From Opisthocomus hoazin (Eukaryota > Chordata > Aves > Opisthocomiformes > Opisthocomidae): a stretch of 64,000 nt of DNA. Positions within the stretch are counted from its first letter, which is position 1. Each line of letters begins with the position of its first letter. The notes below the pieces were generated by a model. The model did no database searches and was not told the DNA's origin. It was given only the letters and a program-made list of their open reading frames with translations. This document shows positions 1,486 to 64,000 of this stretch, piece after piece. Made by a program: the position numbers and the translations under genes. The DNA lies in NCBI RefSeq assembly GCF_030867145.1, contig NC_134433.1, positions 13,963,216-14,027,215 of the forward strand. Direction: 5' to 3'.

Positions 1486-1992
1486 TTAGAAGAGTTTTAG
1501 GTGACCAGAAACTTTATCTACCACGTCAGCTGGTCCCGGGCCAATACCGAGGACGGTCTGGGAGCCCGGAGCGATCTGCGTACGCCCCGCATCCTGTATT
1601 AAGCTCACGGTGAGTCCGAGGTGCTTGGCGTCCGCCAGGAGCTGGATCAGAGTCTCCTCATCCGGCGCTTTGAGGACCACTTTCGGCTGCCCGCAGTACT
1701 CCCACTGCTTCAGGAGTTCGGGGTTTCTTCTTTGCACCTGCCGGTAGGCGGAAACAGCCGCGTGCGAACACTGCGCTGCCACTTTGCCCTTGCCCATCTT
1801 CAGATCGTTGCGGACAACCAGCACCATCTTGAACTCCCCCGACTCCCCCATGACGTCAGCTTCGCTCCCCGCGCTGCTCGCAGGCGTTCTGGGCGGCCTC
1901 AGGAGCCTCCCGCGGATGCCCCAGCCCAGGCAGACCCCGCAGGCGACGCCGGCGATGACGCTGAGGAACCCGGGCTGCGAGAGGTAATCCAT
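1486..1992 (-). CDS. PTRH2: Peptidyl-tRNA hydrolase 2, mitochondrial (Bit1), 168 aa
   Basis: PTH2-family enzyme that releases tRNA from stalled peptidyl-tRNA; the vertebrate protein sits in the mitochondrial outer membrane and is also known as the anoikis factor Bit1. Residues 1-8 are followed by a hydrophobic anchor at about 9-26, a variable linker at 27-52, and the PTH2 domain from about 54 to the end. Family signatures are visible: [13 protein letters not shown] at 67-79, EYCGQPKV in the middle, [20 protein letters not shown] near the end, and the terminal GHLKLF. The only ATG of the frame is at 1992-1990 and matches the usual MEYL-type start of orthologues; the open frame runs 35 codons further upstream only from a TTG, and a splice acceptor interrupts that extension. 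The length is close to the roughly 180 aa of mammals. There is no intron in the coding part. The gene is transcribed away from VMP1 from a shared CpG island. Identity is very secure. Confidence 0.96.
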
Positions 1993-2011
1993 GCCGGAGT
2001 CCGGAGACGGG

Positions 2012-2543
2012 CTGGGAGGGGAAAGGCACAGTTTACTGGAGCGCTGCTCAGCTCGCGGGGCTGCGCTGGCTGCCTGCGGGCAGACAGGGTTTGTCAATAG
2101 CCGAGATCCGTTCCGCGGGGAGGGGGCACTCGCAGGCTCTCCGCGGTCGGCTCCTTGCCCGGCGACAGCTCCCCAGCCGCAGACAGCTCGCCGGTGGCGG
2201 CGCGCGACCTCCCGGTGACGGGCTTCGCCTCGGGAAGCGGAACTGAGGAAAAAAACAGCAAATTACGTGAAAGTTACACCTAAAAACGGCGAGAGAAACG
2301 GTAAAATGGCGCGGGCTTCCAAGCCAACGCCCAAAGATCGCTCGAGAGATGCTATCCGGGCCGGAGCGGAGCCACCGGCAGCCACGGCACCACCGGGCCC
2401 CGCGCACCGGCAGCCCCCGGGGGAGGCGGCCGCACCGGGCAGGCCGGCCCCGGGCACAGCCAGACCCGGCGGCAGGAGCAGAGCGGGACCCGCGGGCGGA
2501 ACGGGCCCGGCCCACGAAGGCCTCAGGACACCCCGCCGCTCAC
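2012..2543 (-). other. PTRH2: Probable 5'UTR intron of PTRH2
   Basis: On the minus strand a consensus donor, CAG followed by GTGAGC, begins at 2543, and a pyrimidine-rich acceptor (TTCCCCTCCCAG) ends at 2012, 20 bases before the start codon. Splicing would remove 532 bases. This explains why the open frame upstream of the start has no ATG. Donor and acceptor are read directly; actual use is inference. Confidence 0.6.
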
Positions 2544-2590
2544 CTGCCGCGCGGCCGCTGTCGCCCGGAGGTGACGTCACCAGAGGCGCG
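2544..2590 (-). other. PTRH2: Probable non-coding first exon of PTRH2 (5' end uncertain)
   Basis: This is the sequence upstream of the minus-strand donor at 2543. It is GC-rich and has no ATG that would lead into the PTRH2 frame. The transcription start is not determined; the limit near 2590 is a guess based on the CRE at 2572-2579 and the ETS-like site at 2592-2602. Confidence 0.4.
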
Positions 2591-2680
2591 CGGGAAGTGA
2601 CGCGACCCGGCAGGCGGGCAGGGGCGGGGTTGGTTCTGCACCGACTTCCGGGTTGGCCGGGGCCCAGCGGGAGCTGCCGG
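2545..2680. promoter_or_regulatory. Bidirectional PTRH2/VMP1 core promoter
   Basis: The stretch lies between the PTRH2 donor (2543, minus) and the VMP1 donor (2692, plus), so both starts must be within it or very close. It carries a perfect palindromic CRE (TGACGTCA, 2572-2579), a combined ETS/half-CRE string GGGAAGTGACG at about 2592-2602, and ACTTCCGG (ETS, minus orientation) at 2644-2651. No TATA box is seen. Site assignments are by consensus match; factor binding is inference. Confidence 0.7.
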
Positions 2681-2691
2681 CGCGGAGTGTG
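2640..2691 (+). other. VMP1: VMP1 exon 1, non-coding (5' end uncertain)
   Basis: A strong donor GTGAGT begins at 2692 inside the CpG island, just downstream of the ETS-like site. Vertebrate VMP1 has a non-coding first exon followed by a start-codon exon several kb away, and this is the best donor for it. The 5' end is not visible in the sequence; 2640 is an estimate. Confidence 0.6.
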
Positions 2692-3448
2692 GTGAGTGCG
2701 GCGCTGCGGGCCGGGGCCGGGCCGGGGGCTCGGCTGCCGCAGGGGCTTCCCCGGTGGGCGGAGGGGTCTGGCCGCGCCGCCGTCCCCTCAGCCGCACCTG
2801 CCCGGCCTCCCCCATCCCGCCCCCTCGGCGCCGCTCCCCTCACGTCCGCGCGCGCCCCCGGCCCCGGTCTCCCTGGTGACAGCGCGCGGGCGGGCGGCCA
2901 GGCGGCAGCCCCGGGACCGGGCCCTGGGGGGGAGGGGGGGGGCAGCGGCGTCCCGGGGCACCGTGAGCGGCGGGAGCGGCGAGGAGGCGGCCGCGGCCTG
3001 AGCGGGGCGGGGGGGGGGGGGTGTTGTGCGGCGTCGCCCCCGGCGAGTTCATCCCGGTGCCGCGGGAGACCGGCTGCGCGCGGGACGCGTCACGCCACGT
3101 CACGCCAGGCCGGACCGAGCCCCGCGGGACGATGCCTGAGGCCGAGCGGAGCGCCTGGGCGCGTCTGTCCGGCCCGTGGTTCCCTGGGCGGCGTCACCCG
3201 GCCATCCCGGAGGTGCCAGAGCGGCCCCGCTCCCGTTTCGTTCTAGCTTTGCCCGCGGGGTGCGGGGCCGTGCGGGTGGGCTGAGGGCAGGGTGGTGGGT
3301 CTGGTAGCGGCTGCATGTCCAGGGTGTCCGCGCGGAGCGGCACGCGTGGCCTTGCTGTGGGGTTCCCTCCCGCCCTGGTCCGCTCGCTGCGGACAGCGGT
3401 GCCTGCAGCGAGCGGGTGTCCTGGCTGGGTTGGTGTTCATGGTGCGGG

Positions 3449-3694
3449 CTGAGCTGGAGGGAAGGAAGCTCGGTCTGAACAGGAGGAAGAACTTCTTCCC
3501 TCTGAGGGTGACGGAGCCCTGGCCCAGGCTGCCCAGGGAGGCTGTGGAGTCTCCTTCTCTGGAGATATTCCAGACCCACCTGGACGCAGTGCTGTGCAGC
3601 CTGCTCTGGGTGACCCTGCTTGGGCAGGGAGTTGGGCTGGGTGACCCACAGAGGTCCCTTCCAACCCTGAACATTCTGTGATTCTGATTCTGTG
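3449..3694 (+). mobile_element. CR1 LINE, 3' fragment, young subfamily
   Basis: Severely 5'-truncated CR1 retrotransposon end. It codes in frame for the usual C-terminal reverse-transcriptase string ([20 protein letters not shown] at protein level) and ends with the CR1 3' tail of ATTCTGTG units (3673-3680 and 3687-3694, with a 6-base partial unit between). It is nearly identical to the matching part of the copy at 21534-22231, so both derive from the same recently active subfamily. Confidence 0.93.
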
Positions 3695-3800
3695 GGAGCG
3701 TGGTAGTGCTCGCTTACGCCTTGGAGCACAGGAATTTTGCCTGAGCTGTGGCTTTTTGGTGCTGTTTTACTGTTTGGACTTCTGCTCTTCTAAGGTGCTT

Positions 3801-3845
3801 TCACAGAATCACAGAATCCCTGGTTCCTGCCAGATTGGTCGACTG
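3801..3845 (-). mobile_element. Short CR1 3'-end fragment
   Basis: The string CACAGAATCACAGAATCC is the reverse complement of the CR1 tail. Only a few tens of bases look related, so this is a very short or decayed copy facing the element at 3449-3694. Confidence 0.5.
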
Positions 3846-11301: not shown

Positions 11302-58140
<46,839 letters not shown>

Positions 58141-59677
58141 GTGAGTAATTCTTTAACACCGTAATACCTTCACTCATTAAGTGGAAAAATACTGGAGTCA
58201 AACTAGATGTGCTGAAAATTGTGCTTTGCTTCAAAGTGCAAGCTTTGGCCAGCACGTAATTTAGGTCTTATTTGCAACTTCATTCCTCACCTCAAGGGCT
58301 TCAAATACTTCAAGAAATATAACATAATAGAAATATAATAGATCAGATGGCCCAAGTATGTAGTACCAACGGTACCCAGAAATACGATACAGCTCTTCCC
58401 ATTGGAGATTGTGGCACTTTCAGCTGCAGATAGGCTGGGTTTTTATGGACTTTCTTTGATGTTGTAGTGTGATTCTACGACAAAAAAATGAAAGAACTGC
58501 TGTGATTTATGCAGTGTCCTAAGATGACAGTAAACATCCTCCATAATTTGAACTACCTTTTACATTTAAAATATTGAATCTCTCAGAAAATGTCAGAAAG
58601 AGAATTTTGGGGTGTAGCATTATAGCTCCATTCTGTTAAACTTGGGTTTTCATAGGAGAAATGACAGTTTTTGTGGGTAAACTGTTCCCATCTTGAAAAA
58701 GTTTGTCTTTTTTTTTCTTTTTTTGACTGAGTTCTTTAGTGATTGGTTGTTATTTTATTTTTTAAGTGAAAATCTCAGTTTAAAACAAGAAAACTAAGCA
58801 AAAACCCAGCTAAGGACAGTTGGGGTGGGAGGGGGGAAGACAATTAAAACAACATGCTTACATGTGCCTCGGTGGGTTTGAATGAAGACTGAACACTGAT
58901 GATGAGGTGCAGGAGTTTTGCCTCATGTCTACCTGTTCAGTCATGAAATTCTGTGTAATTTTAAAATCCATTGTTGAGGTTAACGTTTCCTGCCTGGTAG
59001 TCCAGCAAAGAAGATCGTAACAGGGTCTCTCTAACCATGCAGAAGTTTCATAAACTTCTTGAATGCAAACAGTCTGTGCAACCTAATTAATTTAAATGTA
59101 GGCAACTAGATCAAATCATATGGATTTCATCAAAAATTGATACGTAGTTGTTCAAAGGAACAGTCATGTTCTGGGAGGGGGAAGCTACTAATCAGATCAG
59201 TTTAATGTGAGGGATGCGGGCTGAAAGGTTTAACTGTAAGCCTCTAATATTTAAATAGAAAGCCTTACTATTGGGGGTTTGGGGTTTTTTGGTCTGTTTT
59301 TTTTTAAACTAGATACCTAATATGGATCCATAAAATAAATTCTAAGGTGTTTCTACTTCTCCAAGGTCTTTCACTTGTCATATGGGGCAAATTGATTGAC
59401 ACTTTGCTCTCCAAACTTTAATAACTATTTTCACATAAAATCCAAAAAGCCACACTCCTCAAGAACAGTTTCAGGGGAGGAATGTCTGGAAATAGTTCCT
59501 TTTAAAATATGTAAACTTGAAGTAGTAATGCTATACAAAGAAAAGGAGTGTCAGAAGAAAGGTTCTAGGGCATTTCACTAATGAAACAAATCCTGACTTT
59601 ATTACTTCCTGATCTTCTGATTGGGCATCTGGTTTGTAACAAACTTCAGAATTAATTTGTTGCTTTGAACATTATTT

Positions 59678-59700
59678 AAAAAAAAAAAGAGAGAGAGAGA
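59678..59700. repeat. A11(GA)6 simple repeat
   Basis: Eleven A then six GA units in intron 10. Confidence 0.9.
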
Positions 59701-61162
59701 TGTCACTACTTGTAGCCATCATTAGTTAGCTTTTCTTAGTATTTTTCTTAGTATCAGTCACACGAGGCGATTCACTACTAACTTTTGATCTGCGCTGCTA
59801 CTAGGTCAGGTATATTTCCAAAGATTTACTCTCCTGCAAATCTTTGAGCCAAAACTGGTAGGTTTTTTCCTACTTCATCTGTCTTGGAGATAATTTTGCA
59901 TCGAATTACTTTGAATGCATTCACAAGACCTCCGCTGGATTCAGATTTTATTAGATGGTTGATGTCAGAGTTAAAAAATGTTCTCGGGAGACAGTAAGAT
60001 TTTTGGAATGTCCCGGTATCCTTGACTTTTCTCAAGCTGTCTGCTAACATTACCTCATCAATTTCTTTTAGAGTGGAGTATAAAACATGTTAAACAATAG
60101 CTTGCATTAAATCCCATATTATTAAATTAAAATATAGTTCTATTTAATGGTCAGTAACTGTATTTTAATCAAATTCTATCTGACACAATGACTTAAGACT
60201 TTTTTTTGTCTGGGATATTGCTCTTACACAATAGGAAATGCCTAAGCACAATACTTTAAAATAATGAACACATTAATATACAGGATAACTAAAATCTAGA
60301 CAGAAGATTAAGTTACGAGATAAAGTCTGAGAATATTTGATTTTATAAGCTGGAGAGAATTTCTCGATAACTACATGAGTCTTAGTCAAAAAAGCCAAAC
60401 CACTTCACCTGCAGACCTTGCCCGTAGCGCAAGAGCTGCTTCCTGCTGTTACTGGATGCTGCTGGCGTTGCACACTAAGCCAGCCGTAACCCGGCCGTTT
60501 TAATATAATTCAGGGTAATTTGATTTTACAGTTTTGTCTAGGTCTCCATTACAAAAGGAGCATAAAATACTCCTTATTAATTAAATAAAGAAACAAAAGG
60601 AGAAGAAAATGTGGCAGGAGATCAAGAGCTGTTTATGAAAGATTTTTGAAAACATTGGTGGTAGCTAGTGGACAAAAAGAGAGGAGTGAAGGGTGGTGGT
60701 GGCAGCAAGGCGGAGGGCAGCTCTGCTGCAGCAAGCCCCCTGCAGAGGAACAAAGGGGCGTGGGTGGGTTGAAGAAACTGAAGCTAGCGTGAGTCTTGAA
60801 ATCAGAGCTGACGAGGATTGCAAAGGTGCTGGTAGCTCACATCAGGCTGGTAATTATCCACCTGTTCTACCAGTTCGTAGTTTAAAGTTGTATTATTGCT
60901 GTCTAAAATGCTAAAAGAGGATAATGTTTTCTCTCCGGTTGTGTTATGTTTGTAAGCTTTTGTGAGGAAGGGTGGTGTGTAAGAGTTTTGCCTTTTATTC
61001 TGTCACTTGAAGAATAGTTGAACTCGCTGATCATCTATGTAAAATACTTTTGATGCTGGTTTTAGGCCGAACCTAGCCCATTTGAAATGTTGAATTATCA
61101 TGTGTGTTGTGGGTTTTCTTTTGGGTCTGAAATATTTCTGTTTAATTTTTTTTTACCTACAG

Positions 61163-61370
61163 CTGCAGGATTGTTTATGAAGTCACACTAAGCATATTGC
61201 TTTTAAGCACAATCACATTTTCTTTGAAGTGGCAGTTTCAAATGTGGATTAAGAATTCCCAGAAAACAGCTAAAGAAATAGTTCGCAAAGCACACACCAT
61301 CCACAAAACTGTCTGCCATCAATTCTGGGTAAATGTTCAGAAAGAAAAAAAAAATCTAAATTTTGTGTAG
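61163..61370 (+). other. Candidate alternative terminal exon of VMP1 (unproven)
   Basis: A long pyrimidine tract and acceptor (TTTTTTTTTACCTACAG) end at 61162. Joined to exon 10 (phase: two bases GG), the sequence stays open for 68 codons to TAG at 61368-61370. The predicted tail has a hydrophobic stretch, IVYEVTLSILLLSTITFSL, then a basic region rich in K, R and H. A second AG six bases downstream (61167-61168) would keep the same frame. AATAAA at 61793-61798 could end such a transcript; alternatively a GTAAAT donor follows at 61329. I do not recognise the peptide, and it does not match the standard VMP1 C-terminus. Chance is a real alternative in an intron this long. Confidence 0.25.
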
Positions 61371-61792
61371 TTCAGCATGCTCTGTTCATGCTTTGTGAAA
61401 ATGAGCTAATAACTTTAGAACTTCAATAGACACCTGAAAAATTCATGAATGTGTTTTACCTAGCAGTAGGCAGCACGTGGCCTTCACCTCAGAAGCATCT
61501 GAGCTTCAGTGGCAAGTGGTACGGCCGCATCCTGGTTGGACAAATCCCACCCTTCGGGCAGAGAGATTCGCTCCGAACTGTTGTTAATGGTGAACTCGTG
61601 TGGGCTGCAGAAGGCCTTCATTCCAGAGGCTGGGGTGGTTACTCAAGGGGAGGCGTGAACTTGGAGAAGTGCTCGTAGGATACACTGGGTATGCTGTCGT
61701 CTTAGCAAGATGAGTGAACTACCTGGAGCAAATGGTGCCTTGCTGATTGTAAGAGAAGTAGAGACTCATCTATTCAATTAATGAAAAGAGTC

Positions 61793-61798
61793 AATAAA
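61793..61798 (+). terminator. AATAAA downstream of the candidate alternative exon
   Basis: A consensus polyadenylation hexamer about 420 bases after the TAG of the candidate exon. It is meaningful only if that exon is used; isolated AATAAA strings are common in AT-rich introns. Confidence 0.2.
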
Positions 61799-63259
61799 CT
61801 AATTTGAAGTTTAAATAGAAGCCAGTGAAATGCATGTAAAAAACCTGCATACTTCAACAGATTTTTTAAAATTAATTTGTTAGTGCCATGTTCCATGGGT
61901 GAGACATGTTAACACTGTAAAGTGTAATTCAGCAAACTCTGAAAATCTCCCCAAAAATATCAGTGCTGCTGAAGGGTTTCTTAACCTGGTGGTTTCTGCG
62001 GAGCAGATTTTCGTGCCTACCAGCTCTGCAGGCCAGGTGGAATGATTGCACGTGTTAAAGGAGCAGCAGTGTCTGGGAACAGGTACTTGAACCCTGGCCT
62101 TGACAAACCAGTTTGCTGCTCTCTATTGTGCCATAATTCTTTGCTCCACAACTTAATCTCAGTTGATTCGTGTTAAGGAGCACGATGTTCCGTTCAGGAA
62201 AAAAGTACAAATGAAATCATGGTGACTGATGTAACTGGAAACTTTGCTTAGAGATTGTATATTTTTTCAAAAACCATTTACAATATAGGTTTAGGTTATT
62301 TCTTTGGAATACAAGTCAAGAAGCTACAGTGATAAAGGGCTGCAGCAGAAACCAGTTGTCCTGGGGTGGGAAGAGCCCTTTTTTTGATTCACATCGTACC
62401 ACGTGGTTGCCAGGCGTTTTTTTGGGGCTGTTGGCAGGGTACGACCCCATAGCAGGGCTTCTCCCAGCTTGTCTCCACAGCTCCACATCGCTCCGCTCTG
62501 GGCAAAGCAGCGTCAGAGGAGCCAGGCACGATCTGCCAACCACACCTTCTGACTCGGTGGACCATTGTTTTGCACGTATGCCAGAAAGTCCATATCCCAT
62601 TGAGCTGACACCTGCATTAAAGGATATTTTGAAAAAAATAGCTTCCAATCGATATTAAAATAAAACCTGCGTAGTAAAATTCCACCAAAAATAACCTGAA
62701 GTGGCTGAGAAGAGGATAACTGAGCAGTGACTTGAAGATCTCTGACAGAAATGCTTCTGGAAGGTTACACCAATGCACCTGACGTTTCTTGGTACGATAA
62801 ATCAATGGCTCTCCTCCCACAGGTATATCGGAAACCTGTGGGACTGTGCCCTCGTAATACGCACTGTACACAATAGATCAGCTCTGCACAAAAAAGGCTT
62901 TGGCGTCCCGAGAGGGACACAGATGCGGATGAAATTTGAGTAGCTTTGGTGTTGAAAACCTTCCAGGGGATCACAACAGAATTACAAAAGTTTATTTGCA
63001 AAAGGCTTGTAGGATTTAACTCCGAACAGGCAAGCTTATTTAATAAATTGTGTACAGAAATAATGCTGCTATATCTTTAAAATACAAACAGGAGTTTCCT
63101 TACAAAGGACGATACTGAGCAGAGCTAAGAACCAGCAGTGCAGAGATGTTGCAATTCCTATTTTTGAAAGCATTTATTTTAGCGTAACAGAACGTCCCAA
63201 GAAAAAAGCACGTTTTGCAGACAGCTTGGTTAATGTGGCTATTGGAGCGTGGCTCCAGG

Positions 63260-63273
63260 TATAAATGACGTCA
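63260..63273 (+). promoter_or_regulatory. TATAAAT next to a perfect CRE
   Basis: TATAAAT (63260-63266) overlaps by one base with the full palindromic CRE TGACGTCA (63266-63273). It lies 300 bases upstream of the AP-1 pair and may belong to the same regulatory region. Confidence 0.35.
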
Positions 63274-63569
63274 AACGTGTAACAATTTTAGCTTACTAAT
63301 CTTCAAATAAGATATTTTCTTTCTTCATCTTGTAAAGCAAGTGAATCTGCCAAGTAACCTTTTAAGCCCCAAAAGGTTTCTGTTGATCCTGACCATAAAC
63401 CAGGTTTATTTCCTGCAGTTTTAGAACACTGAAGGCAGATAATGTCTCGGTTGCACTGAACGTTCCGGAGTGGCGGTGACAGACGCTGAAGGCTGCGGTT
63501 GCTCGGTGGGACTGGGGAGCCCAGGTTTTGCTGGGAGCTGGGGTCCAGGCTGGCTGCAGCATCGTCTGC

Positions 63570-63680
63570 TGGGGCTGAGTCAGGGGGAGCCCGCGGTCCT
63601 GAGTCACTGCCCAGCCCCGAGCCGCGGGGAAGTGGATGGTTTAAATACTGTGAGAATCTTTATCAGCACAGGAAATGACA
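63570..63680 (+). promoter_or_regulatory. MIR21: Candidate intronic promoter of the miR-21 primary transcript
   Basis: Two consensus AP-1 sites TGAGTCA (63576-63582 and 63600-63606) are followed by a PU.1/ETS-like GGGGAAGTG (63626-63633) and an AT-rich TATA-like TTTAAATA (63640-63647), in a short GC- and CG-enriched patch within VMP1 intron 10. In mammals the miR-21 primary transcript starts in this intron from a promoter controlled by AP-1 and PU.1. A start near 63670-63680 would fit. The hairpin itself would lie beyond the window. Motifs are seen; orthology and function are inferred. Confidence 0.45.
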
Positions 63681-64000
63681 GCTCATTAAAATACTAACCG
63701 TTAAGCCTGTTTAGATCACTGTCTGGAAAAAAATTAACCATTGAAGGTTCAGATAAGTTGCAGGAAGAAAGGTGCTCTGTTCAGACAGTCAACACGGCAC
63801 GCAAATTAATCAGCTTTGCTAGTTGTCCAGTGGCATAAAAGTATTTCTGTTGGAATCTGTTTTTCAATGGTTTGTAAAATACCTAACTTTCAAAGACGTT
63901 GATACCGTGCTGGAGCAGAACTTCCAGTTTCTTTTGAGGGAGGGATGGCTAAAATAACCAAATACGGTGCCTCTTACTAAATATTTTATTGCTTTTGAGC

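Follow-up and report, generated by a model that had tools for sequence, protein, structure and literature searches.

The window analysed here, a 64-kb stretch of the hoatzin genome (64,000 nucleotides), carries a large part of the VMP1 gene. A tblastn search with the human VMP1 protein returned 18 rows, nine of which are plus-strand exons, correctly ordered between 11302 and 58140, at E 1e-6 or better. The other nine rows (E 0.68–7.9) were dropped as chance, among them two close to the patch described below, at 63173-63120 and 63508-63621 (E 3.5 each). We take human VMP1 to have one non-coding first exon, so that the nine matched exons presumably correspond to exons 2–10. Exon 11 was not found in 58142-64000, where rows from the C-terminal part of the protein are weak, the best having E 0.43 over 8 aa. 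Because exon 10 ends at about 58140 and no convincing C-terminal match follows up to 64000, a GC-rich patch with a cluster of regulatory-type motifs near the right end of the window lies inside intron 10. The patch is 5.4 kb into the intron, on the VMP1 sense strand, and this fits the location expected of the mammalian promoter miPPR-21. A preliminary description of this DNA had placed the motifs in the intron that follows VMP1 exon 10, and the exons matched by tblastn, the GTGAGT donor and the lack of an exon 11 match up to 64000 confirm that placement.

No Rfam family reaches its threshold anywhere in the window; MIR21 is therefore outside it and would lie to the right. The mature miR-21 sequence was also sought in viral contigs and in genome contigs, for vertebrate contamination carrying the locus, with 0 matches in each.

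Several other features of the window were recorded. A long GC-rich region (up to 0.87) extends over 1492-3732, upstream of the VMP1 coding exons, and is perhaps a CpG-island promoter. An intronic patch at 20892-21424, with GC up to 0.89, contains a perfect 31-bp tandem repeat of 2.1 copies at 21238-21302. Octamer repeats of ATTCTGTG are located at 3673-3817 and 22216-22231 (3 matches, two of them exact); they resemble CR1 tails, as would suit a bird or another sauropsid.

Table 1. Features in and around the intron 10 patch, in window coordinates
Feature	Position	Strand	Basis
VMP1 exon 10 (human numbering)	58079-58140	+	tblastn 83% over 23 aa, E 1e-6; CTACAG acceptor, GTGAGT donor
VMP1 intron 10, visible part	58141-64000	+	VMP1 C-terminal part without convincing match up to 64000
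Palindromic CRE/AP-1-like TGACGTCA	63266-63273		motif scan; putative element
GC-rich patch	63411-63686		150-bp GC up to 0.71
AP-1 word TGAGTCA, canonical	63576-63582	+	exact match; putative site
AP-1 word TGAGTCA, canonical	63600-63606	+	exact match; putative site
GGGGAAGTG, Ets/PU.1-like	63626-63634	+	exact match; factor assigned from motif only
TTTAAATA, TATA-like	63640-63647	+	exact match; aligns with bovine GATAAAT
Segment collinear with bovine pri-miR-21 core promoter	63628-63666	+	local alignment score 24; 42-nt end-to-end ranks
Predicted pri-miR-21 transcription start region	63665-63690	+	TATA-like spacing and bovine start

In all, the window has 14 patches with GC of at least 0.60, this one included. 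GC enrichment around the motifs, as described earlier, was confirmed: GC is 0.70 at 63486-63635, a value reached by 2.7% of 150-bp windows. TGAGTCA also occurs within two of the remaining 13 GC-rich patches (25925, 36470). Stop-to-stop frames of 84 aa (plus strand) and 118 aa (minus strand) cross the patch, as they might if it were an exon or a repeat copy instead of a promoter. A Pfam search yielded no hit for either frame at E up to 1, although this is a weak test, because a true 44-aa VMP1 exon is likewise unmatched. The best other self-match of the patch within the window extends over 15 bases (E 0.065), and one 16-base two-copy repeat touches the patch at 63683-63698. Based on these results, an exon or repeat copy was rejected as a highly improbable explanation.

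Motif cluster and chance expectation

The cluster consists of two canonical TGAGTCA words spaced by 24 bases, start to start, followed by the Ets/PU.1-like GGGGAAGTG and then by the TATA-like TTTAAATA, each found where the preliminary description had reported it. AP-1 and Ets/PU.1 words, as expected of miPPR-21, are present in the patch as motif matches. Besides the TGAGTCA pair, the only AP-1/CRE-like word that the patterns used detected in 63200-64000 is TGACGTCA, 310 bp upstream of the pair; it is a perfect CRE palindrome that adjoins TATAAA (63260), and the combined TATAAATGACGTCA spans 63260-63273.

Taken alone, TGAGTCA is no more frequent than chance would have it, with 10 copies observed in the 64-kb window against 11.3 expected. 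GGGGAAGTG occurs twice against 0.47 expected, a count reached by 8 of 100 shuffles. TTTAAATA occurs 18 times against 4.9 expected, and a word so common in the window says little. The succession of one AP-1 word and a TATA-like word is ordinary as well (5 observed; mean 3.3, sd 2.0). Among 300 random 64-kb sequences, a same-strand TGAGTCA pair within 24, 30 or 50 bases was present in 2.0, 2.7 and 5.3%, respectively, and a pair in either orientation in 4.7, 5.3 and 10.3%. When random 300-bp sequences with the composition of the patch were used, a same-strand pair within 30 bases occurred in 0 of 20,000 and a pair in any orientation in 2 of 20,000. The full ordered cluster, comprising the pair, the Ets word and the TATA-like word, turned up twice among 400 random 64-kb sequences; it is rare, though its definition was fitted post hoc to the observation.

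These frequencies lead to the question of whether the patch is simply a GC-rich intronic stretch in which a pair of AP-1 words happens to coincide with a frequent TATA-like word, with no regulatory role. Close pairs on one strand arise in 2–5% of random 64-kb sequences, and in up to 10% when any orientation is allowed; TTTAAATA is abundant, and the motifs were picked after the sequence had been read, all of which favors coincidence. However, coincidence has to account for the scarcity of the full ordered cluster in random sequences and for an intron and a strand that are both as expected, and we regard it as unlikely.

Comparison with mammalian pri-miR-21 promoters

PMC6070548 describes a bovine pri-miR-21 start, mapped by RACE to the VMP1 intron that separates exons 10 and 11. 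It is situated directly downstream of a block conserved in cow, mouse and human, the second most conserved of the aligned region; STAT3 sites are given at -47 and -16, and a longer pri-miR-21 transcript takes in exons 11 and 12. As a query we used the last 61 bases before this start, assembled from the printed primers. Bovine blocks recur in the hoatzin patch in the same order, i.e., GGAA-TGG, TGGT, TAAA, TGTGAGA and TCAG. Local alignment of the whole 61 nt with the segment at 63628-63666 is not significant: P is 0.06 when judged by random 300-bp sequence and 0.09 when judged by real tiles. Aligned end-to-end, the 61-nt query ranks the segment 3rd to 7th of 37–39 plus-strand places in intron 10; window-wide the segment is 32nd to 103rd of 868–874 places, and its score is reached by 4 to 13 of 300 shuffled queries. 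A 42-nt query running from GGAA to the start, trimmed post hoc after the local alignment, gives the segment the top rank among plus-strand places of intron 10 with each of three scorings (a tie in one). Window-wide, the segment is then 2nd to 4th of 864–879 places, and none of 300 shuffled queries reaches the score there. Two bovine cloning primers compared with the window gave no convincing match in 62800-64000. The post hoc 42-nt query thus supports a likeness to the mammalian promoter, while the whole 61-nt fragment, at P 0.06–0.09, does not stand out. The order of the blocks suggests that the patch may be homologous to the bovine core promoter.

Across the window, the whole bovine fragment matches best elsewhere, at 40732-40680 in intron 7 (minus strand), with a local score of 44; the highest control scores were 41 for 150 random 64-kb sequences and 40 for 300 shuffled queries. 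The same place leads three end-to-end scorings (58 to 53, 66 to 64 and 52 to 44), with small margins in some. Its corrected significance is modest, because eight queries and several scorings were tried. The intron 7 element (40680-40744, minus strand) carries two STAT-like sites at a spacing of 28 bases, with TGAGTCA immediately upstream, and a TATA-like word is absent at the matching place. The element may be a relic, a STAT3 element that arose by convergence, or a product of chance.

Paired STAT3 sites like those of the bovine core were absent from the patch, as judged by three simple patterns at a spacing of 26–34, which detect 3 STAT-like pairs per strand window-wide. In addition, the sources disagree on the mammalian start: relative to an earlier start, the promoter is placed ~900 bp upstream in PMC6528201 and the STAT3 sites ~800 bp upstream in PMC3907398, both unlike the cow. 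Since exon 11 is not in view, the true pri-miR-21 promoter could lie to the right of 64000, near exon 11, with the patch acting only as an AP-1 enhancer in intron 10. The missing bovine-type STAT3 pair, the non-significant match of the whole bovine fragment and the failure to find exon 11 up to 64000 are all compatible with such an arrangement, but the TATA-like element and the TGTGAGA block come after the AP-1 and Ets words in the right order, and we consider the more distant location fairly unlikely.

The human promoter was compared through its AP-1 sites. The review PMC6528201 assigns the human promoter to TMEM49 intron 10 and names AP-1 and PU.1 sites for it, in agreement with what the preliminary description had said of the mammalian miR-21 promoter. 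The sites in the EMSA-bound human AP-1 probes are termed non-consensus by the authors (PMC6694678), and the cores read from the printed probes are TGACTTC, TGACGCA and TGACACA. The three probes and two human ChIP primers, compared with the window, had no convincing match in 62800-64000. Because the human sites depart from the AP-1 consensus and their probes are unmatched, the comparison gives no support for a conserved AP-1 pair. AP-1 control may nevertheless be common to birds and mammals while the sites differ; that this control predates the bird-mammal split, as proposed earlier, rests on published work and not on the sequence of the window.

A candidate avian pri-miR-21 promoter

Based on the location in VMP1 intron 10, the ordered cluster, the collinearity with the bovine core and reports on Meq and AP-1 in chicken, we propose that the patch is probably the proximal promoter from which avian pri-miR-21 is transcribed. 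The motifs, the host intron, the strand and the partial collinearity with the bovine core are directly established; factor binding, the start site and the product we infer as follows. Jun/Fos dimers would bind both TGAGTCA sites and GGGGAAGTG may be bound by PU.1 or another Ets factor, while the TATA-like TTTAAATA would set the start ~25–45 bases downstream. The predicted transcript would run rightward, take in VMP1 exons 11 and 12 and reach the MIR21 hairpin, and pri-miR-21 would be transcribed independently of the VMP1 promoter. Judged by the bovine transcript, with a total length of 3.5 kb, the hairpin is predicted at no more than about 4 kb from 63670, and exon 11 ahead of it. Counted against this promoter reading are the P values of the 61-nt bovine fragment, the post hoc trimming, the lack of a STAT3 pair, the unmatched human probes, the differing mammalian starts, an exon 11 out of view and the presence of TGAGTCA in two of the 13 other GC-rich patches. 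For the avian promoter as first described, gene, intron, strand, motif order and some bovine-core collinearity were retained, and a counterpart of the AP-1 pair in the human probes was not.

A more far-reaching proposal is that birds and mammals both retained AP-1 control of miR-21 but came to exert it through remodelled sites, as a tight canonical TGAGTCA pair in birds versus three non-canonical sites in human, with the STAT3 pair lost or moved in birds. The bovine-core-like element on the minus strand of intron 7, with its two STAT-like sites and TGAGTCA, can be cited beside such a loss or move; we regard the proposal as quite doubtful.

The microRNA miR-21 is induced by stress and growth factors. 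The chicken gga-miR-21 promoter was reportedly mapped, by Stik and colleagues in 2013, to the 10th intron of TMEM49 (VMP1), with AP-1 and Ets elements, and is said to be activated by Meq. A literature search on chicken, TMEM49, miR-21 and AP-1 gave no apparent description of the chicken promoter among the matches listed. Meq is a tumour-virus protein of AP-1 type that is reported to switch on miR-21 in chicken; according to two reviews citing Stik et al. 2013, it acts with AP-1 to raise gga-miR-21 (PMC6862082) and binds the miR-21 promoter (PMC7459779). With the bird promoter known exactly, one could try to tell the old parts of this switch from the rebuilt ones. Because a promoter of this type is already described in mammals and, reportedly, in chicken, the finding is ordinary; it is sensible and not surprising.

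Compared with known systems, the hoatzin patch differs from human miPPR-21 in having two canonical TGAGTCA words in place of three non-canonical AP-1 probes, and from the bovine core in that paired STAT3 sites are not evident. It resembles the bovine core in the TATA-like word and the TGTGAGA block near the bovine start. With mammalian miPPR-21 as a whole (human, Fujita 2008, via reviews; cow, PMC6070548) it shares VMP1 intron 10, the same strand and AP-1 plus Ets/PU.1 sites. The same intron and the AP-1 and Ets elements also liken it to the chicken gga-miR-21 promoter, a likeness drawn from the reported mapping and not from sequence.
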